In this document: positions 19,257 to 32,960 of the stretch, in pieces
How the letters are laid out: every line of letters begins with the position of its first letter
How positions within the stretch are numbered: position 1 is the stretch's first letter
Source: Gemmatimonadota bacterium
GTDB lineage: Bacteria > Gemmatimonadota > Gemmatimonadetes > Longimicrobiales > Gaopeijiaceae
Assembly (NCBI GenBank): GCA_022560615.1
Contig: JADFSR010000040.1
Location: 1 to 34,563 of the forward strand
Length of the DNA stretch: 34,563 nt
Reading direction: 5' to 3'
Program-made: the position numbers and the translations under genes
Notes under the pieces: generated by a model
Databases searched by the model: none
What the model was told of the DNA's origin: nothing
The model's input: the letters and a program-made list of their open reading frames with translations, nothing else

Positions 19257-20210
19257 CTAGACGGTTGCCGGTTGGGGCCTCTTCTTCTCGCCGCTCTTTC
19301 CGAGGCCCCATCTCTTCTGGATCTCGATGAGGGCTGGCGACGCCACGAAGATCGACGAATAGGTGCCGATGATGACCCCGAGAATCAAGACGAAGGTGAA
19401 GTCACGGATCACGGCCCCACCCAGAAGGAGTAGCGCCAAGAGAACCGAGAGCGTGGTGCCAGAGGTAAGAATGGTGCGCGGCAGCGTCTCGTTGATCGAC
19501 TCGTTCACCAATTCGAGCTGATCACGCTTGCGAGCGCCCTTCTTGTGCATGTTCTCGCGGATGCGGTCGAACACGACGATGGTGTCGTTCAGCGAGTACC
19601 CGAGAATCGTCAAGATCGCCGCAACCGTCGGAAGCGCGATCTCGACCTGGAACGCCGCCAGGAATCCGAGCGTGATCAGGATGTCGTGCAGTGTCGCGAT
19701 TACGGCGGCGAGACCGAAGCGAAGCTCGAAGCGGATCGCCAGGTACATCAGCGTGAGCAAGAAGGAGAAGAGGATCGCGTAAAGCGCTTGCAGCTGGAGC
19801 TCAGCTCCCACCTCGGCACCGACGGCTTCGGCACGCACCACCTCGAAGCTTGGGGAGCCGAAAGCCGCCGCGAGATCGTTTTCGATCCGGTCGGAAACCT
19901 CGGTGATCGAGGCATCCTCGGCGATCGGCGCGCGGATCACGAACTCGTTCTCCTCGCCGAAGCGAGTGATCGGCGGTGCCTGCGCCCCGCCCAGTGCGTC
20001 GCGCAGATCCCCCACGTCTATCGGGGTGTCGAAGCGCACCTGGATGAGCGAGCCACCCGTGAAGTCGACGCCGTAGACCTGCCAGCTCCCTATCCTGGCG
20101 AAGTTGATCATCATCGCCACGACACCCGCGAGAAGCACAGTGGCGGAGAGGATATACGCCTTCTTGCGCGCCTCGATGAACTGGTACCTGGCGTCCTTGA
20201 AGAGTCTCAT
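19257..20210 (-). CDS. secF: Protein translocase subunit SecF
   Basis: 317 residues, normal length. SecF pairs with SecD in the inner membrane and uses the proton-motive force to complete Sec-dependent export. The start MRLFKDARYQFIEARKKAY leads into TM1 (about 18-38). The motif VDFTGGSLIQVRF is at about 50. The C-terminal RND-type bundle has LGYSLNDTIVVFDRIREN near 205 and GGAVIRDFTFVLILGVIIGTYSS near 265. It starts seven bases after the secD stop; tatD follows after 23 bases. Confidence 0.97.
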   Translation of the reverse strand: MRLFKDARYQFIEARKKAYILSATVLLAGVVAMMINFARIGSWQVYGVDFTGGSLIQVRFDTPIDVGDLRDALGGAQAPPITRFGEENEFVIRAPIAEDASITEVSDRIENDLAAAFGSPSFEVVRAEAVGAEVGAELQLQALYAILFSFLLTLMYLAIRFELRFGLAAVIATLHDILITLGFLAAFQVEIALPTVAAILTILGYSLNDTIVVFDRIRENMHKKGARKRDQLELVNESINETLPRTILTSGTTLSVLLALLLLGGAVIRDFTFVLILGVIIGTYSSIFVASPALIEIQKRWGLGKSGEKKRPQPATV

Positions 20211-20217
20211 ATCTCGA

Positions 20218-21846
20218 TCAGATGCTGATGGGATCCGCCGTCTTCTTACCGCTCAGGTAGAGCAGGAAGAACGAACGGGTCACGAAGAGGGCGGAGAAGA
20301 ACGAAGCGATGATTCCGATCGATAGCGTCACGGCGAAGCCCCGTACTGGGCCGGAACCGAACTGGAAGAGAATCAACGCCGTGATAAGCGTCGTAATGTT
20401 CGCGTCGACGATCGCGGAGAGCGCATGACCGAAGCCATCGTCGACCGCCGTGCGCGGTGCCCGGCCATGGTCCAGCTCTTCTCGAATCCGTTCGAAGATC
20501 AGAACGTTGGCGTCCACCGCCATGCCGACCGACAGAATGAGTCCTGCGATTCCCGGGACGGTCAGCGTGGCTCCCATTCCGGCGAGCCCGCCCAAGACCA
20601 GGATCGAGTAGACCCCGAGCGCGGCGACCGCGAGCACGCCCGCCGCGCGGTAGTACGCGACCATCACGAGAATGACCAGGACCATCCCGATCATGCCGGC
20701 GAACTTGCCCTTGTCGATCGAATCCTGCCCGAGCGATGGACCGACCGTGCGCTCCTCGATGATATGGATCCTCGCGGGTAGCGCACCGGCCCGGAGCACG
20801 AGCGCAAGGTCGGCCGCTTCCTCGAGCCGCGTCCCACTACCCATCTCGATCTGCCCACGGGCTCCGATCTGAGACCGGATGATCGGCGCGCTCATGACCT
20901 CATCGTCGAGCACAATCGCGAGATAGTCTCCGACGTGCTGGCCCGTGAACGTCGAGAAGCGGCGGCCGCCAGCGCGCGAAAGCTCGAACTGCACCTGCGA
21001 CTGGTTGAACTGCGGATCGCGACCGGCGGTGGCGTTCTCGAGCATGTCACCGGTCAGGAAGGGGTCCTCCTCGAGCACGTAGAGGTACTTGTAGTTGCGC
21101 GCGCCCCTGGCCTCTACGCCCTCCCCCCACTGCATCACCTGGTCGCGCGGGAAAGCCCGCTGGACTTCGGCGAGCGATAGGAAGTACTCGGCGATAGGAA
21201 CGTCCTCGATCGCCACCAGATAGGTACCCAGGATGTCGCCAATGTTCAGCAGGGACGAGAACGGACGCAGATTGTCCGGGCTGCCTTCGTCGTCCCCCGG
21301 CTCCGCCTGTGTGCTGTCCGCTCCCGCGCTAGTGCTCGCACTGTCCCTAAGCCCGAAGAGGAGATCCTGGAGCGCCTGTTGATCGTTCCCGGCGATGTCC
21401 CGCCCCATCGCCCGGATCGAGTCGATTCCGAGTGTGACCACGATCGAGCGATCGATGCGCGAGAGCGCATTGTTCATGTCGGTCCTGGGCAACACGAGTT
21501 TGAACTCGAGGTAGGCGTTCCGCTGGACGATTTCTTTCGCCCGATCCTCATCGCCCTGGAGCCCCGCAAGCTCGACGATGACCCGGTCGTTGCCCACCTT
21601 CTGGATCAGAGGCTCGTTGACGCCGAACTCGTCGATGCGCGAGCGGATGGTGCGCACGACGCGGTCCATCATGTCGGCCTTCGCCTCGGGCGTCATCGTG
21701 CCCTCGGGGTCATCGACCTCGAGAAGGATGTGCATGCCGCCCTGCAGATCCAGGCCGAGCTTGAGCTGTTTGTCATACAGTTGCCAGCCGGAGATGAGGG
21801 TCACGATGAAGATCGTGATCAACCGGCCGCGGAGCGTCTTGAACAT
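20218..21846 (-). CDS. secD: Protein translocase subunit SecD
   Basis: 542 residues. SecD forms the SecDF complex with the next gene. Motifs are LGLDLQGGMHILLEVD after TM1, GNDRVIVELAGLQ (P1 domain), the large periplasmic region, and the RND motif VGMAVDANVLIFERIREEL near 450 followed by FVTRSFF. The P1 region contains an unusually acidic, serine-rich stretch (STSAGADSTQAEPGDDEGSP) typical of a flexible insertion. No SD is visible before ATG 21846, and a hairpin with six T ends about 20 bases upstream. yajC is not adjacent. Confidence 0.97.
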   Translation of the reverse strand: MFKTLRGRLITIFIVTLISGWQLYDKQLKLGLDLQGGMHILLEVDDPEGTMTPEAKADMMDRVVRTIRSRIDEFGVNEPLIQKVGNDRVIVELAGLQGDEDRAKEIVQRNAYLEFKLVLPRTDMNNALSRIDRSIVVTLGIDSIRAMGRDIAGNDQQALQDLLFGLRDSASTSAGADSTQAEPGDDEGSPDNLRPFSSLLNIGDILGTYLVAIEDVPIAEYFLSLAEVQRAFPRDQVMQWGEGVEARGARNYKYLYVLEEDPFLTGDMLENATAGRDPQFNQSQVQFELSRAGGRRFSTFTGQHVGDYLAIVLDDEVMSAPIIRSQIGARGQIEMGSGTRLEEAADLALVLRAGALPARIHIIEERTVGPSLGQDSIDKGKFAGMIGMVLVILVMVAYYRAAGVLAVAALGVYSILVLGGLAGMGATLTVPGIAGLILSVGMAVDANVLIFERIREELDHGRAPRTAVDDGFGHALSAIVDANITTLITALILFQFGSGPVRGFAVTLSIGIIASFFSALFVTRSFFLLYLSGKKTADPISI

Positions 21847-23168: not shown

Positions 23169-23250
23169 GCGATGGTCTCCTGAGCGACCGGATGCGGTCG
23201 AAAGTTACACTCCCAAGCTGGATTTCATTGTGCCTGCCCGCGTTTTCCCG

Positions 23251-24260
23251 ATGATTGCGCGGAAGTTGACCGCACTCGCGCTGGCGCTCGCCTCCGGCGC
23301 CAGCTGTGGGGATGCGGCACTCGAAGTGGTGCCGTACACCTCAGTCGATCAAGTCTTCTCCGAGCCGATCTTCCGATCCTTCGAGGAAGAGAGCGGCATC
23401 CGCGTGCGTGCCGTCTTCGACACGGAGGAGACGAAGAGCACCGGAGTGCTCAACCGCATCATGGCTGTTTAGCGCAGGCGCCGCAGGCGGACGTGTTCTG
23501 GTCCGGCGATCCAGCACGAGCCTTCATCCTGATCAACCGCGGCCTGGTCGAGCCGTACCGGTCGCCGAACGCGGACCGGATCCCGCCGGAATTTCGGTCG
23601 GAGGACGGTATGTGGACCGGCTTCGCGGCGCGCGCGCGTGTGCTGCTCGTCAACACCGACCTCGTCGACGAAGCCGAGCGTCCGGTCTCGATCCGAGACC
23701 TCGCGAACCCCCGCTGGCGGGGGCGGACGACCATCGCGAACCCCCTATTCGGCACGACTACGATGCACGCAGCAGCGCTGTTCACCGTGTGGGGCGAGGA
23801 GACCGCGAAGACGTTTTTCGACGCGCTCATGAGTAACGATGTCCGGATCGCGAGCTCGAACGGTGAAGTGAAGCGGCTCGTCGTCTCGGGCGAGGTCGCG
23901 TTCGGGCTCACGGACACGGACGACGCCTACAGTGCCGTGCAAGAAGGGGCGCCCGTCGCAATCGTGTACCCGGACAGGGACGATCTGGGGACGTTGGTGA
24001 TGCCGACCGTGGTCGTGATGCTCCGTGGAGCGCGTCATCCGGAGGCCGCACGGCGGCTGATCGATCACCTGCTCACCGCAAGGACGGAGGAGGCACTGAT
24101 CGAGGCGGGCGGGCACATGCCTCTGGGCCCGACGGATACCGGCGCAACATCTCTACCCGGACTCGACCAGCTCCGGCCCATGGCTGTGGACTACCAACTC
24201 GTCGCGCGGGAGATGGAACGGATCCAGCCGTGGCTGCGCGAGTGGGTAGGCCTGCGCTGA
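23251..24260 (+). pseudogene. Ferric-iron type ABC substrate-binding protein, frameshifted
   Basis: Two frames together give one FbpA-like binding protein. The first, from ATG 23251, has a signal/lipoprotein-like N-terminus (LALALASGASC) and YTSVDQVFSEPIF...DTEETKSTGVLNRIMAV, then stops at TAG 23470-23472. The second continues immediately as LAQAPQADVFWSGDPARAF and runs to TGA 24260 with all later family blocks (GEVAFGLTDTDDAY; HPEAARRLIDHLL). One extra T in the TTT at 23468-23470 would restore a single frame. Such proteins bind Fe(III) or similar ligands in the periplasm for the permease encoded next. It could be a true pseudogene or a homopolymer sequencing error. Confidence 0.85.
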
Positions 24261-24342
24261 TAAGGCGGACACGGCAGCGCGCCCAGCGACCATGTTCGCT
24301 CCGGGGTGCCCGCGCCAATCGACTGCCAAGCCGTCGCACCCG

Positions 24343-25530
24343 ATGAAGGTTCGTTCGCCCACTCAAGAATCACTTCTTCTGTGGGCGCCGAGCGTCATCC
24401 TCGCCTTCGCCGTCCTCATCCCACTCGCCACTCTGGCCGTGGAGCTAACGTCAGGTGAGGAGGCGATGACCGGAGTCACCACGGTCCTGCTGGCGCCCGA
24501 CGTATGGCGGCTACTCGCCGGCTCGGTCGCGCTCGCCACCGCGGTGACCATCTTTGCGAGCGTTCTCGGCGTGCCGCTCGGTGTCCTGCTAGGCCGCACC
24601 GACGTGGGTGGACGTGGCTGGCTGCTCGCTGTGCATGCTTTCCCGATCTTCGTGCCGCCGTTCCTCGTGGCGCTCGGCTGGTTCCACATCGTCGGTGCAA
24701 ACGGCTACCTGGGCACCCCGTTCACGGCTCGCCTGTTTTTCGGGCCCGTGGGAGTCGTTGCCGTGCTCGGGCTGACGTTCGCCCCCATCATGACGAGCTT
24801 GACAGCGCTCGCGCTCCAGAACGTAGATCCGTCCTTGGAAGACGCCGGGAGGGTCGTTGCCGGGCCGCTTCGCGTCATCGTACGGATCCTGCTCCCCACG
24901 GCGTGGCCCGCTGTGGCGCTCGGCCAGCTGCTGGTCTTCGCTCTCGCTCTGTCCGAGCTGGGCGTGCCCATGTTTCTGCGTGTGCGGACGTACCCGGCAA
25001 GCGTCTTCGCTCGGCTGGGCGGGATCGACTACGCGCCCGGCGAGGCGGTGGCTCTCACGCTGCCGCTCCTGGCCGTGACGCTCGGGCTGCTCGCGCTCGA
25101 GCGGAGGCTCGTGGGCGCGAGGACGTTTGCGGTGCTCGGGCTGCGGCGCCGCAAGAGAACACCGTTTCGCCTTGGACGGTGGAAGGTGCCCCTCACCCTG
25201 GCGTGCGCCTCGATCACAATGCTGTCGTTGGCGCCGGTGCTCGCTCTGGCGATCCGTGCGGGGCCGGCCGGGCTCGCCGAAATGCCCGTATGGATCCGCT
25301 CGAGCCTTTGGAACAGCATGCGCGCCGCCGCCCTGGCGGCCACCGCGATCACGGCACTCGGCTTGACGGGCGCGTGGGCGTTCGCGCGCGGGCGAGCCGG
25401 GGGACGGCTCCTGGACGCCACTTTGATGCTCGGCTTCCTCATACCGGGGGCCGTGCTCGGCGTTGGCCGATGCGGCCGACGAAGAGAACAACGCCTACTG
25501 GGAAGGCCCCATAAACTCCCATGTATTTGA
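24343..25530 (+). pseudogene. FbpB-type ABC permease, truncated at a junction near 25465
   Basis: ATG 24343 begins a polytopic membrane protein: TM1 LWAPSVILAFAVLIPLATLA, then a BPD_transp_1 domain with FPIFVPPFLVALGWFHIVG and an EAA-like loop DAGRVVAGPLRVIVRILLPTAWPA (about residues 165-200). A second set of TM segments begins near 285 (VPLTLACASITMLSLAPVLAL). Family members have about 500-550 residues in two six-TM halves. Here homology ends at GFLIPGAVLGVG (about residue 375) and the last 20 residues are basic read-through of another gene. The second half and any ATPase gene are missing. No SD is evident. Confidence 0.8.
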
Positions 25531-26442: not shown

Positions 26443-28566
26443 CTACATCGCCCGCCGGAGCACCGCGTGCACCCGGGCCATGAAGCGGTCCGCATCGACT
26501 GACTTCTCCATGTAGTCGTCCGCACCCGCCTCAAGTAGCTCAGCCTCGATCCGATCGCTGCCGGTGCCGGTTCGGATCAGGACCGGCAGCGCTGCCGTAT
26601 CTACCGATCCACGCAGCTGATGCAGAACCTCGCGACCATCGAGGCCGGGCATTGCGAGGTCGAGGATCAAGAGGTTGAAGTCTTGGTCCTCGAGTAGTTC
26701 GAGTGCCTTGCGGCCGTCCACTACCTCAGAGACCTCGTATCCGTCGCGCTCCAGCAACGTCCGCATCAGCATGCGCGCGTCTTCATCGTCGTCCACCAGC
26801 AAGATACGCGGTGGACCCTTTGCCTTCTCCTGCGATTCTTGGTCGAGCGTCTGGCCAAGAACACGCTCCACCTCCACGAGTGTCGTACGCCCCTGTTGCA
26901 CCCACTCCAGGCCGACCGTGTGCAGATTGCGCATTCCGCCCTGTTCCGCGATGCGGGACATCGTCGCCCAACCCTTGCGTTGCTCAATGGCCTGTTGCAT
27001 TCGCGGACCCACGACGAGGACTTCATTCACCGGCACGCGGCCCCGATATCCTGTAAAGCCACACTCGGGACACCCAACCGCTCGCACTACCGGCTCCATG
27101 CCGTGGCGATCCGTGAGACGCTGCTCGTCCAGCGTGAGCTGGCCTCGAACCGGCTCGGCGCACGTCGCGCACACGCGCCGCAACAGCCGCTGTGCGATCG
27201 CTCCGCGCAGAGTCTGCGCAATCGTACCGAACTGTAGGCCCAGATCCGCCAAGCGAGACACCGCGCTGACCGCGTCGTTGGCGTGTACGGTCGCGAGTAC
27301 GAGGTGGCCGGTCATCGCCGCCTGCGCCGCCGTCACCGCGGTCTCCTTGTCGCGGATCTCTCCGACTAGGATGACGTCCGGGTCCTGGCGCAGCATCGCT
27401 CGCAACGCGCCGGCGAACGTCATGCCCTGCTTCGTCTCCACCTGGGTCTGCGTGATGCCGGGCAACTCATACTCGATCGGATCCTCGACCGTCATGATGT
27501 TCACCTTGCCGTCGGCAAGCTCGCGCAGAGCCCCGTAAAGCGTGGTGGTCTTGCCCGAGCCGGTGGGCCCCGTGATGATGACGACACCGTCTCGATGCTG
27601 GAGCAGACCGCGCAGTCGCTCGAGCTCCAGCTGCGGGATGTCCAGGTCGTCGAGCGTCAGCGTGGCGCCTGAGTCGAGTATGCGAATGACGCACTTTTCC
27701 GCGCCAGCGGCCGGAATCGTCGAAACACGCAGGTCGTAGTCGCGGTTCCTTACCTGTACGCGTGTCTTGCCGTCCTGCGGCCTCAATCGATCTGCGATGT
27801 CCAGCCGCGAAAGGACCTTGATTCGCGAAACGATCCGGTTCAGCGCCGACATCGGTAGGTCCATGTGCTTCCTGAGTACACCGTCGACGCGATAGCGGAC
27901 CGCCCCGAGCTTGCGCCCCGGCTCGATGTGGATGTCGGAAGCGCCAGCATTGATGCCGTCCCGGATGATCATGTTCGTGAGTTTGATGACTGGAGTCGCG
28001 GCCACGTCCGTCCCCGAGACCGACTCCGGTTCGGTTATCTCTTCTACGAGCTTGACTGCGTCAATGGCGATGTCGTCGAAACCGTCAAGAAGAGTCTCGA
28101 TCGCCTTCTCGGGAGAGTAGCGGCTGTCGAGTGCCTCCTGCACGGCGCCCGGCGACGTGACTTCGAACAGCGGGGTGCGCCCGGTGCTGAAGCCCAGGGC
28201 GCGCTCGGCGTCCACGTCCGTCGGGTCACAGGTGGCGACCACGAAGTGCCGGTCGTCCTCAAGGAGCGGAAAGATGTGGTGCTTCCGCGCCATCGTCTCG
28301 GGGATGAGCAGTGGCGCGTTCGGATCCGCCTTCTCGAAATCCGCCACGTCCAGCCGGAAGTATTCGGCAACGAGCTTGGAGAGCTTGCCGTCTGACAACT
28401 CGTACGCCTTGGTGACGTCTTTCCAGGCGTCTTGAGCCTTCCTCCCAGCGGGAATTACGGGACGGTGACGGTCGCCCAACCCCGCGCGCTCGGCGATCCG
28501 AACGAGCCAGTGGACGGCGCCCCCGCGATCCGTCCCCTGCCCGGTATCCTCGGCGACCTCGCTCAT
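26443..28566 (-). CDS. GspE/PilB-type secretion ATPase with C-terminal receiver domain
   Basis: 707 residues. The N-terminal domain (about 50-150) matches the T2SSE_N region of GspE/PilB. The ATPase core has Walker A GPTGSGKT (333-340), the Asp box region TVEDPIEYELPGITQTQV (359-376), Walker B VILVGEIRD (398-406) and the His box LATVHAND. The tetracysteine zinc site is C466/C469 and C499/C502. After about residue 586 comes a complete CheY-like receiver domain: acidic pair D592/D593, phosphoacceptor D636 in LILDLAMPG, conserved K688. The enzyme would power a type II secretion or type IV pilus-like machine, with phosphorylation as an added control. Its ATG overlaps the upstream REC-GGDEF stop as ATGA. 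No other pilus or secretion gene is nearby. Confidence 0.93.
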   Translation of the reverse strand: MSEVAEDTGQGTDRGGAVHWLVRIAERAGLGDRHRPVIPAGRKAQDAWKDVTKAYELSDGKLSKLVAEYFRLDVADFEKADPNAPLLIPETMARKHHIFPLLEDDRHFVVATCDPTDVDAERALGFSTGRTPLFEVTSPGAVQEALDSRYSPEKAIETLLDGFDDIAIDAVKLVEEITEPESVSGTDVAATPVIKLTNMIIRDGINAGASDIHIEPGRKLGAVRYRVDGVLRKHMDLPMSALNRIVSRIKVLSRLDIADRLRPQDGKTRVQVRNRDYDLRVSTIPAAGAEKCVIRILDSGATLTLDDLDIPQLELERLRGLLQHRDGVVIITGPTGSGKTTTLYGALRELADGKVNIMTVEDPIEYELPGITQTQVETKQGMTFAGALRAMLRQDPDVILVGEIRDKETAVTAAQAAMTGHLVLATVHANDAVSAVSRLADLGLQFGTIAQTLRGAIAQRLLRRVCATCAEPVRGQLTLDEQRLTDRHGMEPVVRAVGCPECGFTGYRGRVPVNEVLVVGPRMQQAIEQRKGWATMSRIAEQGGMRNLHTVGLEWVQQGRTTLVEVERVLGQTLDQESQEKAKGPPRILLVDDDEDARMLMRTLLERDGYEVSEVVDGRKALELLEDQDFNLLILDLAMPGLDGREVLHQLRGSVDTAALPVLIRTGTGSDRIEAELLEAGADDYMEKSVDADRFMARVHAVLRRAM

Positions 28567-29465
28567 GACCCTCTCAGCGCGGCGCTACGCTTGACGTGCT
28601 TTTCCTTGTACATCGCGTTGTCGGCCTCGGTGATGAGGTCGTCGAGGCGGATGTGCATGTCCTCTTCGTGACGCGCCATCCCGATGCTGACGGAGAGCTG
28701 GTACGGCTCGGGACTTGTCTGGTTGAACTCCGTCACACTCCCTCGCAGACGTTGGATCAACAGCTCAGAACTCTCGCGGGACGCCTCCAGCGCGAGCACT
28801 CCGAACTCATCCCCACCCAGCCGTGCGATGATATCCGAGCGTCGAAAGGTGGCCTTGAGAATATCCGCCACTTTGAGAAGTGCTCGATCGCCAACATGGT
28901 GACCCAGCGAATCGTTGATCGTCTTGAATCGGTCGAGATCCAGGTAAACCATCGTCACGCCCCGGCCGGAGCGTTTCGCCAACTTCAGATACTGCTCACC
29001 TAGATCTGAGAAGCCGCGGCGATTGTACAGCCCCGTCAAGTCGTCGATCAGCGACAGGCTGCGCAGAGCGGAGAGGAGCCGGTGCCGTTCAATGGCGTGT
29101 CGCACGGAGCGCGCGAGCACGGACGCCTGCACCTCGTCCTTGACCATGTAGTCCTGCGCACCGCCCTGGACGGTCGCGTTCGCGACTTCCTCGTCGGCCT
29201 CATCGGTCAGCACGATGATCGGCACATCCGGAGCGAACGCGTATGCGCGCTCGAACGTCACCATGCCGGTGCTGTCGGGAAGGTCCAGATCGAGCAGAAT
29301 CACGTCGATTCCGCCCTGAGTCAGTCGGGCGAGGGCTTCGCTGAGCTCTCCGGCCCACTCGATATCGAGTTCTCCCTGACGCACGGCCGAAAGTCGGTCG
29401 CGGAGATCATCCAGATACTCCCGGTCGGACTCGACAAGCAGGATCTTGATGGGCCGTTGCTGCAA
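28563..29465 (-). CDS. Response-regulator diguanylate cyclase (REC-GGDEF)
   Basis: 300 residues from TTG 29465; SD is weak. Residues about 6-125 are a receiver domain with phosphoacceptor D59 (VILLDLDLPDS). Its conserved lysine is K109 (DYMVKDEV). Residues about 138-292 are a GGDEF domain: DDLTGLYNRRGF, DLDRFKTINDSLGHHVGD, and an intact GGDEF at 217-221. The inhibitory I-site RxxD is present five residues before it (R208-D211). It should make c-di-GMP from two GTP on phosphorylation, with product inhibition. Four-base overlap with the ATPase-REC gene shows one operon and suggests the two share a phosphorelay. Confidence 0.95.
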   Translation of the reverse strand: MQQRPIKILLVESDREYLDDLRDRLSAVRQGELDIEWAGELSEALARLTQGGIDVILLDLDLPDSTGMVTFERAYAFAPDVPIIVLTDEADEEVANATVQGGAQDYMVKDEVQASVLARSVRHAIERHRLLSALRSLSLIDDLTGLYNRRGFSDLGEQYLKLAKRSGRGVTMVYLDLDRFKTINDSLGHHVGDRALLKVADILKATFRRSDIIARLGGDEFGVLALEASRESSELLIQRLRGSVTEFNQTSPEPYQLSVSIGMARHEEDMHIRLDDLITEADNAMYKEKHVKRSAALRGS

Positions 29466-29542: not shown

Positions 29543-29636
29543 CCGCTAACGCCACGTAGAAAAAACAGATGTTTACCATTGTTGGGCTCATTCGCCGGCC
29601 GACTCGGTCGCCCCGCTCAAGTCGGCGAGAGCTCCG

Positions 29637-29984
29637 CTACCGAACGCGCCCGAGCAGAACGTCCTCGAAAAAGCGAATCACAACCGGATCATATCCGTCC
29701 CCCTGATCAGGCTCAGGAGGAACTCCGCCACTGGAGGATCTCGGCCGCGCGCGCGTCGCCCGCTCGCTGTGAGATCGCGAAGATCGCGCGCTCCTGCAGC
29801 TCCTCGTCGTCGCTCTCCACGCATACCGAACCCTCATTCGCTCAAAGCGCTCGGCCGCGTCAGAATAGCGCCGGCGGCTGAATGCCTCTCGGGCCGCCCG
29901 ATACGCTTCACTGGCGGGATCTTCCTGGAATTCCGGCATGGCCGGGGCCGGCATCTCTGGTCGAGCCTCGACGTGGCTGGCCAC
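29637..29984 (-). pseudogene. Remnant of a HEAT/TPR-like secreted protein, internally deleted
   Basis: One frame gives MPAPAMPEFQEDPASEAYRA then AREAFSRRRYSDAAERFERM, a tetratricopeptide-like start typical of proteins encoded after ECF sigma factors in Gemmatimonadota. At about 29818 the likely homology moves to another frame, VESDDEELQERAIFAISQRA then GDARAAEIL, which looks like a HEAT repeat and stops at 29713-29715. The original frame runs on to 29637 in low-quality sequence. The middle of the protein and its N-terminal signal are missing. Function cannot be assigned beyond a repeat scaffold. Confidence 0.55.
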
Positions 29985-29986
29985 GT
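29971..29986. repeat. Perfect 16-base palindrome at the sigma/HEAT junction
   Basis: ACGTGGC-TG-GCCACGT lies exactly where the sigma-factor homology ends and the HEAT-like frame begins. Confidence 0.75.
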
Positions 29987-30176
29987 GGAGAACGCCGCGT
30001 CGCCACGGGACTGGTCGAGTCGCTGGTAGGCCCGCAGAAACGCTTCCTGCGCGAAGTCCTTCGCCGGGTCCTCTTCTCCAGCCATTCGGTAAGCAAGGCG
30101 GTATATCCTGTCCACGTTCGCATCGTAGAGGGCTCGAAAGGCTTGCTGATCGCCGTTGCTATCTCTTCCAAACCAT
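29981..30176 (-). pseudogene. ECF sigma factor fragment (region 2 only)
   Basis: The minus strand encodes NGDQQAFRALYDANVDRIYRL then AYRMAGEEDPAKDFAQEAFL and ends GDAAFSTW, a clear sigma-70 region 2 of an ECF factor (core binding and -10 recognition). Region 4 is absent, and the frame continues into unrelated sequence until 29834. No start codon is in frame; ATG 30176 is one base out of frame with the homology, which suggests a further single-base change near 30164. It follows the histidine kinase by 57 bases. It cannot encode a working sigma factor as it stands. Confidence 0.75.
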
Positions 30177-30233
30177 GGGACACAGCGCTGGTGCGAACGG
30201 TTGCGCCTCCCTGCGAGCCGCCGACGCGGTCGT

Positions 30234-31598
30234 CTATCTCGTCGGGTCCAGGGGGAGAGTGAGGCGCGCTCGAGCCCCCCGACCGTCGGCGCGGTTCTCG
30301 AGATCGAGCGTCCCTCCGTGGCCCTCCGCAATCTGGCGTGAGAGCACGAGACCGATACCGGATCCGCCCTGTTTGGTGGTGAAGAACGGCACGAAGAGGT
30401 TGCCCGTATCTCCGAGGCCCGGGCCGTCGTCCTCAATGATGATGTGGAGATTCCCCGACCGCGTCAGCCACCGGATCGTGACCAGCTTGCCCTCCGCCTC
30501 CAGCGTCGCCTCGACCGCGTTCTTGAGCACGTTGATGAGTGCCTGTTCCAGTTGATCGGGATCAGCCTGCAGCGATACATCCTCACCCCCCACCACATCA
30601 ACGCTCACACGGGTCTCCAGGTCCGCGACGCTTTGCACGAGTGCTGCGACCCGCGTGGGAACGAGCTTCGGCTGCGGAAGACGGGCGAGCTTGGCGTACG
30701 AGGCCATGAAGCGACCGAGAGCCTCGGCTCGTGATGAGATGACTTCGAGCCCGCGCCGCACGTCGGCGCCGATCTCCTCGGGAAGGCTACTCCGCCCCAA
30801 CATGGTCTGGAGGCTCCCCGAGATCGACTTGATAGGCGCCAGCGAGTTGTTGATCTCGTGAGAGAGCACGCGGATGATGCGCTTCCAGGCCTGACGCTCC
30901 TCCTCTCGCAGCGCTCGACTCAGGTCTGAGAGCACGATCAGTTTCAGCGGATACCCCTCCTGCCGGACCACGCTGCGCCGCAACTCCCATCGGCCCGCCC
31001 CGCCCGGGAACGAGACTTCCATAGTTCGGGGCGCGACGCCCCCGAGGGCGTCTGTCAGCCGCAGCTCGGCAGCGCTCTTGCCGATGAGCCGGTCGGCTGG
31101 CTGGCCCAGAAGCCGCTCGCCCGTCCGATTCACGATGCGTAACGTCTGCTCGGGGTCGAACGCGAAAACCGCGACTGCGATCTCCTCGAGGACCTTGCGC
31201 AGCGTCTCCGTGGCTTCCACCGCCCCAAGGCGCTGCTCGCGAAGGATCTCCTCGAGCGCGTTCACCTCCATGTAGGCCAGCGACAAGGCGTCGGACCCAT
31301 CCGTCACGCGAGCCCGGATCGAAAAGTCGCCCTCGCGAAGCGCCTTGAGCATGTTCGCCAAGGTGCCGAGCGGCCGCACCACATGCTCCCGCAAGGCCAC
31401 CGTGAGCCCGATCCACGTGCCCAGGATGGCGACGGAAGCAGTCCACTGAACCTTGGCCGTGAAGTCACCGAACCAAAGGAAGCCCATCGAGACCGCGACG
31501 CCCGGCAGACCCGCGAAGATCGCGAGCAGAAACACGCGTCTGTCGTGTCCGAGGCGCCTCCACCAGGAGCTCGTCAGGGGCCCCCGAGCACTGCGCAC
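30234..31598 (-). CDS. Sensor histidine kinase (NtrY-like)
   Basis: 454 residues from GTG 31598. Two membrane spans (about 22-43 and 50-70) are followed by a HAMP-like segment (RPLGTLANMLKALREGDFSIRA begins at 75), a PAS domain (about 130-225, AFDPEQTLRIVNRTGERLLG), the HisKA H-box VLSHEINNSLAPIKSISG with H247, and HATPase_c with N-box NVLKNAVEAT (356-365), DDGPG (390-394) and GGSGIGLVLS (411-420). It starts three bases after the NtrC-type regulator, its evident partner. No periplasmic sensor loop is visible between the spans, so the signal may be membrane-borne or cytoplasmic. Confidence 0.95.
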   Translation of the reverse strand: MRSARGPLTSSWWRRLGHDRRVFLLAIFAGLPGVAVSMGFLWFGDFTAKVQWTASVAILGTWIGLTVALREHVVRPLGTLANMLKALREGDFSIRARVTDGSDALSLAYMEVNALEEILREQRLGAVEATETLRKVLEEIAVAVFAFDPEQTLRIVNRTGERLLGQPADRLIGKSAAELRLTDALGGVAPRTMEVSFPGGAGRWELRRSVVRQEGYPLKLIVLSDLSRALREEERQAWKRIIRVLSHEINNSLAPIKSISGSLQTMLGRSSLPEEIGADVRRGLEVISSRAEALGRFMASYAKLARLPQPKLVPTRVAALVQSVADLETRVSVDVVGGEDVSLQADPDQLEQALINVLKNAVEATLEAEGKLVTIRWLTRSGNLHIIIEDDGPGLGDTGNLFVPFFTTKQGGSGIGLVLSRQIAEGHGGTLDLENRADGRGARARLTLPLDPTR

Positions 31599-31601
31599 AC
31601 G

Positions 31602-32960
31602 CTAGCCCCCCTCTTGCTCGAATCGTTGCAGGCGGCGGTACAGTGCGCTTCGGCTCAACCCCAGCGCTTCTGCCGCCTTGCTCACATTGCCCTGGTACCG
31701 GTCGAGCGCCTTCTCGACCAGAAGTTGCTCCGCTTCCTCGAGCGTCAGGTCGTCCATGAGCACCGAGCCGTCTTCGCGCCGACGCAGGCCCAGGTCGGCC
31801 GCTTCAATACGCGAGCCCCGCGACATGAGAACCGCGCGTTCCATCGCGTGCTGCAGCTCTCTCACGTTGCCGGGCCACGAATGGCCGAGCAGCGCGTCCA
31901 TCGCCGACGGGGAGAAGCCTTCGATGTGGCGCTCGTAGCGGGCGACCTGCTTGGCCAGGAAGTGGTTCGCGAGCAACGGAATGTCCTCGCGTCGTTCGCG
32001 CAGCGGCGGCACCAGAATTTCCACGGTGTTCAGGCGATACAGCAGGTCCTCGCGGAAGTCGCCGTTGGCGACAGCTTCCCCAAGGTTGGCGTTTGTCGCT
32101 GTCAACACGCGAACGTCGACCTTGCGTACTTTCGAGGACCCCACGCGTTGGATCTCACGCGACTCCACGACACGCAACAGCTTGGCCTGCTGCCTAAGCG
32201 GCACGTTCGCGATCTCGTCCAGGAACAACGTCCCTCCATCGGCGAGCTCGAAGCAGCCCACACGGTCGGCCTTGGCGTCGGTGAAGGCGCCCTTCACATG
32301 ACCAAACAGCTCACTGTCGAAGACACCTTCACTGAATGCTCCGACGTTGACCGCGACGAGCGTGTTCTTGGCGCGTCCCGAAACCGCGTGCAGCCATCGA
32401 GCGACGACCTCCTTGCCGGTTCCGTGTTCGCCCACAATGAGCACGTTCGCCTCGGAGGGGCCCACGCGCTCGATCACCTCTAGCACGTGTTCCATGGCCT
32501 TCGACTCAGCGATCAGCTCAGGGGCGCCGTCGCCTTTCAGACGCAGGTTCTCGCCTTCCAGTCGCTGACTGCGCCGCAGGGCTCGACCCAACTCTACGTG
32601 CGTGCGGATCGTGGTGAGAAGCCGCTCGTTGTCCCACGGCTTTTCGATGTAGTCGCGCGCACCACGCTGCATCGCCTCTACCGCGCCGGCCACCGAGCCC
32701 CATGCGGTCATGACCACCACGGGTAGCGTGGGGTCCAGCTCGCGCAGCGTGCTGAGCAGGTCGAGGCCTTCTTTCCCGGAAGTCGTGTCCCGCGCGTAGT
32801 TCAAGTCGATAAGGGTGAGATCGAAGTCCCCCTTCTCCACGGCGCGTCGGACTTCGGCGGGTGACGCAACGGTCGCGGTCTCGAAGCCCTCCGCCTTCAG
32901 AAGAATTCGAAGCGCCTCGAGTACGTCCGGCTGATCGTCCGCTACGAGGATGCGTGACAT
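31602..32960 (-). CDS. Sigma-54-dependent response regulator (NtrC family)
   Basis: 452 residues: receiver (1-120, phosphoacceptor D52, K107), AAA+ sigma-54 activator domain (about 145-375) and Fis-type HTH (about 405-448, GNVSKAAEALGLSRSALYRRL). Walker A is GEHGTGKE (177-184). The sigma-54 contact loop is GAFTDA (224-229) in place of GAFTGA; this variant is common in regulators of several phyla, so activity is not excluded. It activates sigma-54 promoters after phosphorylation, presumably by the kinase encoded three bases downstream. It starts 48 bases after the ABC ATPase gene, so it may control this transporter. Confidence 0.95.
   Translation of the reverse strand: MSRILVADDQPDVLEALRILLKAEGFETATVASPAEVRRAVEKGDFDLTLIDLNYARDTTSGKEGLDLLSTLRELDPTLPVVVMTAWGSVAGAVEAMQRGARDYIEKPWDNERLLTTIRTHVELGRALRRSQRLEGENLRLKGDGAPELIAESKAMEHVLEVIERVGPSEANVLIVGEHGTGKEVVARWLHAVSGRAKNTLVAVNVGAFSEGVFDSELFGHVKGAFTDAKADRVGCFELADGGTLFLDEIANVPLRQQAKLLRVVESREIQRVGSSKVRKVDVRVLTATNANLGEAVANGDFREDLLYRLNTVEILVPPLRERREDIPLLANHFLAKQVARYERHIEGFSPSAMDALLGHSWPGNVRELQHAMERAVLMSRGSRIEAADLGLRRREDGSVLMDDLTLEEAEQLLVEKALDRYQGNVSKAAEALGLSRSALYRRLQRFEQEGG

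Follow-up and report, generated by a model that had tools for sequence, protein, structure and literature searches.

Do a motor ATPase and a diguanylate cyclase encoded by overlapping genes answer to one signal or to two? Extension ATPases are tuned from outside by c-di-GMP, by PilZ or FimX, or by chemotaxis-like systems. In a 34,563-nucleotide stretch of a Gemmatimonadota genome (the window), ORF analysis and Pfam confirmed the original prediction of a GspE/PilB ATPase gene with a C-terminal receiver that overlaps by four bases a gene for a receiver–GGDEF cyclase. That prediction went on to propose that one kinase phosphorylates both receivers and that c-di-GMP is made next to its target, the N-terminal domain of the ATPase.

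Layout of the ATPase–cyclase locus

The features relevant to these proposals are as follows.

26443–28566 (−): GspE/PilB-type ATPase with C-terminal receiver, 707 aa (Pfam T2SSE, MshEN and Response_reg; motifs and receiver residues intact)
28117–28512 (−): N-terminal domain of GSPII/MshEN fold without the c-di-GMP motif, residues 19–150 (AlphaFold2, fold match and motif score)
26863–27999 (−): T2SSE ATPase core, residues 190–568 (Pfam; motifs intact)
26446–26814 (−): C-terminal receiver of the ATPase, residues 585–707 (D592, D593, D636, T666 and K688; fold match)
28563–29465 (−): putative receiver–GGDEF diguanylate cyclase, 300 aa, TTG start (Pfam; GGDEF, RxxD I-site and DxLTGLYNRRGF present)
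28563–28566 (−): ATGA overlap of cyclase stop and ATPase start
29124–29444 (−): degenerating cyclase receiver (Pfam; acidic pair replaced by ES)
30234–31598 (−): candidate PAS–HATPase histidine kinase, NtrY/NtrB-like, upstream of the pair (Pfam)
31602–32960 (−): NtrC-type response regulator adjoining the kinase and presumably its partner (Pfam)
20218–21846 (−): SecD, syntenic anchor downstream of the ATPase (Pfam)
19257–20210 (−): SecF, syntenic anchor downstream of the ATPase (Pfam)

Pfam places MshEN at residues 78–154 (1.3e-13), T2SSE at 190–568 (9e-121) and Response_reg at 588–699 (5e-27) of the ATPase, and Response_reg at 8–114 (1e-15) and GGDEF at 139–293 (1e-40) of the cyclase. The ATPase core retains Walker A (GPTGSGKT), the Asp box, Walker B (GEIRD), the His box and four zinc cysteines (Cys4 motif). 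With its N1 domain of GSPII fold, T2SSE core, full motif set and tetracysteine zinc motif, the protein resembles the extension ATPases PilB, GspE and MshE, from which it differs in having a C-terminal receiver, no c-di-GMP motif and no PilC or pilin gene alongside. Because it reaches neither of the NCBIfam equivalog cut-offs, that for GspE (479.7 versus 630.25 bits) or that for PilB (453.8 versus 675.65 bits), we regard it as a relative rather than an orthologue of either.

The ATGA overlap suggests that the cyclase and ATPase genes are translationally coupled, and dN/dS values of ~0.03–0.3 indicate purifying selection on both. A scan for promoters and terminators returned background levels only. 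The examined part of the window yielded no pilus genes, in line with the earlier remark that none lay nearby; the PilB–PilT–PilC cluster of this genome is on another contig (C35), which also carries the only PilC detected in the genome.

Recurrence and inheritance of the pair

The same gene order, cyclase and then ATPase–receiver, was found in 25 genomes from 14 genera of a single Gemmatimonadota family, which answers the check on recurrence set beforehand. The exact 4-bp overlap is kept in 16 of these 25 loci, and most of the others have the two genes within ~30 bp. Recurrence on this scale, with the overlap so often kept, is no accident, and the fusion and the pair are real enough to merit the cataloguing that had been urged for them.

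Most loci of the window ATPase's clade (clade 1) that are long enough to show it continue downstream with SecD, SecF, TatD and MutL, often preceded by a porin; in the window, a porin and a transporter insert separate the ATPase from SecD/SecF. On the tree, the pairing requires one gain and one loss, the latter in two genera. Conserved synteny and a single gain argue for vertical inheritance of the locus, and the SecD–SecF–TatD–MutL context, together with a pairing that tracks the family tree, rules out the portable control cassette that had been envisaged. The transporter insert (23184–25530, +) comprises a solute-binding protein and a seemingly truncated permease ORF, separates the ATPase from the porin/SecDF block, and had no ATP-binding subunit that we noticed alongside.

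Six genomes carry the ATPase without the cyclase. In one of the two genera that lost the pairing (L124), the gene next upstream encodes an ABC-3 metal-transporter permease, and the translated upstream neighbour in the other (L125) looks similar. In G014 and in the sister species G001, the locus has lost the cyclase and all of the ATPase except its C-terminal end, which is left behind the kinase (L135:3249–3971 and L136:9644–9889).

The search for a partner kinase turned up a candidate in the NtrY/NtrB-like histidine kinase upstream of the pair. In 12 of the pair loci a same-strand orthologue lies no more than 5 kb upstream, and in four of them no more than 400 bp, and an NtrC-type regulator precedes it in several loci. 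Between kinase and cyclase, the window also holds the remnant of an ECF sigma-factor gene (29600–30436, −) with part of region 2 and no region 4; at the same place, L014 has an intact sigma gene and, after it, three more genes, of which two contain HEAT repeats.

c-di-GMP and phosphorylation in the two proteins

The N-domains of MshE and PilB are proven c-di-GMP receptors (PMC5013675, PMC11731258), and binding by MshEN requires two 24-residue motifs (PMC5013675; extended in PMC11731258). We scored these motifs at 22 key positions, using the consensus (R/K/L)LGxx..G....L...L..Q twice, ~5 residues apart, from the same two papers. The N-domain of the window ATPase scored 8/22, at the level of shuffled sequences (7.6 ± 0.9, s.d.), and none of the clade-1 orthologues exceeded 9/22. 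Two other ATPases of the same genome, PilB on C35 (18/22) and an ATPase on contig C1 (16/22), have two proper motifs each. The motif test speaks against a c-di-GMP-binding N-domain of the known kind in the window ATPase. With a score at shuffle level, this domain is not supported as the nearby target for which c-di-GMP would be made.

The fold itself is retained. Because full-length AlphaFold2 modelling of the ATPase (8 sequences) gave a poor ATPase core (mean pLDDT of 52.9), we used only the N-domain and the receiver. A model of the N-domain by itself (mean pLDDT of 83) has a GSPII fold with three N-subdomain helices, compared with the four-helix bundle described for MshEN (PMC11731258), and its nearest solved folds are MshE (5htl; Z of 13.1, RMSD of 3.2 over 129 aligned residues) and XpsE (2d28; Z of 12.5). 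The structural part of the original prediction therefore divides: the domain has the overall fold of the MshEN receptors MshE and T. thermophilus PilF GSPII-B, but their two 24-residue RLG...Q motifs, and with them the known c-di-GMP contacts, are absent. Since the fold is kept and the motif lost, we read the window motor as probably blind to c-di-GMP by the known binding mode. Residues H19, W20 and W48 are invariant in the alignment and sit close to motif positions, so the domain may bind another ligand or bind in another way; L21 occupies motif position 2, which is retained. A Pfam match to MshEN is insufficient to infer c-di-GMP binding.

The ATPase receiver has all the residues expected to be needed for phosphorylation. 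Its quintet D592, D593, D636, T666 and K688 is invariant in 21/21 rows of alignment A1 and, in a larger set, is kept by every clade-1 member except one; the receiver gave a fold match with a Z of 23. Every catalytic motif of the core is likewise intact across clade 1. Because these receiver residues are invariant and a paralogous clade adjoins hybrid histidine kinases, control of the ATPase by phosphorylation of its fused receiver is the best reading of the sequences.

The cyclase differs in which of its halves is preserved. It carries GGDEF, an RxxD I-site and DDLTGLYNRRGF; GGDEF is canonical in the window and in 19 of 25 orthologues, with GGDDF or GGDAF in a few, and RxxD is present in 25/25. 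These motifs predict an active, feedback-inhibited enzyme. In its receiver, the acceptor Asp has been replaced by Ser, Asn or Glu in 14 of 24 orthologues, and nearly all have an incomplete acidic pair. The window version reads ES-D-T-K and lacks the second acidic residue; because Asp, Thr and Lys remain, this species may still phosphorylate it. The protein shares the REC–GGDEF architecture, GGDEF and I-site of PleD/DgcR-type cyclases, but its receiver is degenerating, unlike the phospho-activated receiver of that type. Our best reading is that it is becoming a docking or dimerization domain that would act independently of phosphorylation. The loss of the acceptor Asp makes a common kinase unlikely as a general rule, which weakens that part of the original prediction. 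With a motor that has lost the known c-di-GMP site and a cyclase whose switch is decaying, the two proteins most likely signal by separate routes.

The wider family and the machine served

A model of the ATPase–receiver family, applied with a cut-off (E ≤ 1e-155) that no listed REC-less housekeeping PilB attains, matched proteins in 183 of 395 sampled genomes of the phylum, although the receiver is missing or displaced in a few of the matches. Members of the paralogous clade 2 have as immediate neighbours either N-methyl pilins or hybrid kinases, the latter composed of CHASE3 or PAS, HisKA, HATPase, a pair of receivers and Hpt. At L131:6229–10236, a PAS–PAS–HisKA–HATPase–REC–REC–Hpt kinase overlaps the ATPase–receiver gene by 4 bp, a direct kinase–motor operon. 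This context provides the best evidence for a receiver fed by a phosphorelay and a motor that handles pilins. A third, sister clade of at least nine genomes has lost Walker A and kept the zinc cysteines and most receiver residues (L133:9261–11360, L134:9536–11722, L218, L219, L220, L222, L225, L226 and L227); Walker A has decayed to GPARSGT- in eight and to VPDGATGS in L134, and by sequence these proteins are conserved pseudo-ATPases. A contig scan with short exact patterns, which could miss relatives elsewhere, found no full-length relatives beyond Gemmatimonadota. Matches from Lachnospiraceae were discarded, being receiver-only or, for the longer L076, a spurious hit to a MutS2-like protein.

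From these observations we propose that the window ATPase is one of a family of PilB/GspE-type extension motors, each fused to a receiver, that extends across the Gemmatimonadota. Phosphorylation of D636, by a histidine kinase or an Hpt protein, would gate the ATPase or docking activity of the hexameric motor, and the machine on which the motor works would be a pseudopilus or resemble a type IV pilus. The cyclase product would most likely act on PilB (C35) and the C1 ATPase through their MshEN motifs, because those two proteins carry the motifs and a search of the window genome found no PilZ protein. The operon would thereby co-express a phospho-gated motor and the messenger that licenses c-di-GMP-gated motors. 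We give an even chance to this reading of a phospho-gated, c-di-GMP-blind motor co-expressed with a cyclase that serves the MshEN-bearing motors of the genome.

Other arrangements explain parts of the same evidence. That one kinase phosphorylates both receivers and the resulting c-di-GMP binds the adjacent ATPase N-domain would suit the coupled genes, the MshEN fold and the proven receptor function of MshE and PilB N-domains, but with clade-1 motif scores no better than those above and cyclase receivers that have so often lost the acceptor Asp and nearly always an intact acidic pair, we consider it very improbable. Rather unlikely, in our judgment, is a docking arrangement in which the cyclase, through its degenerate receiver, binds the ATPase receiver once that is phosphorylated, or else some other portion of the motor. 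The enzyme would then make c-di-GMP at the machine, to act on a different component, for example the MshEN-bearing PilB. The degeneracy of the cyclase receiver under purifying selection and the co-translation of the pair speak for such a role. FimX offers a precedent: the acceptor Asp is missing from its receiver, and deletion of that receiver is reported to mislocalize both FimX and pilus assembly (PMC11656802). The six genomes with an ATPase and no cyclase speak against the docking arrangement. The FimX–PilZ–PilB and PdeK–PdeR systems (PMC11656802) are similar in tying a c-di-GMP protein with a degenerate receiver to an extension ATPase and in their two-component input, whereas in the present case the ATPase itself carries the receiver as a fusion, a cyclase is the partner and PilZ was not found. 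Distinctly improbable is a receiver–receiver heterodimer through which the phosphorylated motor recruits the cyclase by its degenerate receiver, such that one phosphorylation switches the c-di-GMP-blind motor on and places the c-di-GMP source beside a c-di-GMP-dependent motor of that machine.

Two further possibilities dispense with one or other element of the proposed mechanism. The ATPase–receiver could be a signalling output rather than a motor, such as a regulator that, depending on its phosphorylation, titrates the PilC platform; the Walker A-less sister clade fits this idea, as does M. xanthus PilB acting as an EPS signalling protein (PMC5544727), but the catalytic motifs of clade 1 are all intact, and we think it unlikely. 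To about the same degree, we doubt that the pair shares nothing beyond its expression from an operon related to the envelope and acts on no common process. The locus does precede SecD–SecF, and the ATPase stays intact where the cyclase has been lost, but adjacency and the 4-bp overlap have been preserved over 14 genera.

The proposed phospho-gated motor may serve a machine other than a canonical pilus. G126, which is 97% complete, keeps the pair, and neither a PilB orthologue nor PilC was found in it, so the pair may not depend on a canonical pilus. For the same reason an obligate link of the pair to PilC is doubtful, despite the joint lack of a good PilC and of a full clade-1 ATPase in G001 and G118. 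The C1 ATPase of the window genome (C1:289853–291193) is a second orphan GspE-like ATPase, away from any detected PilC, and relatives of it seem to be present in G126, G118, G003 and G079, not all of which have a detected PilC.

In the literature searched, we found no description of a T2SSE–receiver fusion, and the conserved coupling of an ATPase–receiver to a cyclase is undescribed there; MshEN domains associated with REC are mentioned in general terms (PMC5013675). A motor with its own receiver would, if confirmed, be the shortest path by which a two-component system could reach the assembly of a pilus or pseudopilus. The cyclase-coupled, hybrid-kinase- or pilin-coupled and dead-ATPase branches of the Gemmatimonadota family form a natural series that could test how phosphorylation and c-di-GMP divide control of such machines. 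The pilins that neighbour clade 2 have their closest homologue in the window genome at C8:42766–42840.
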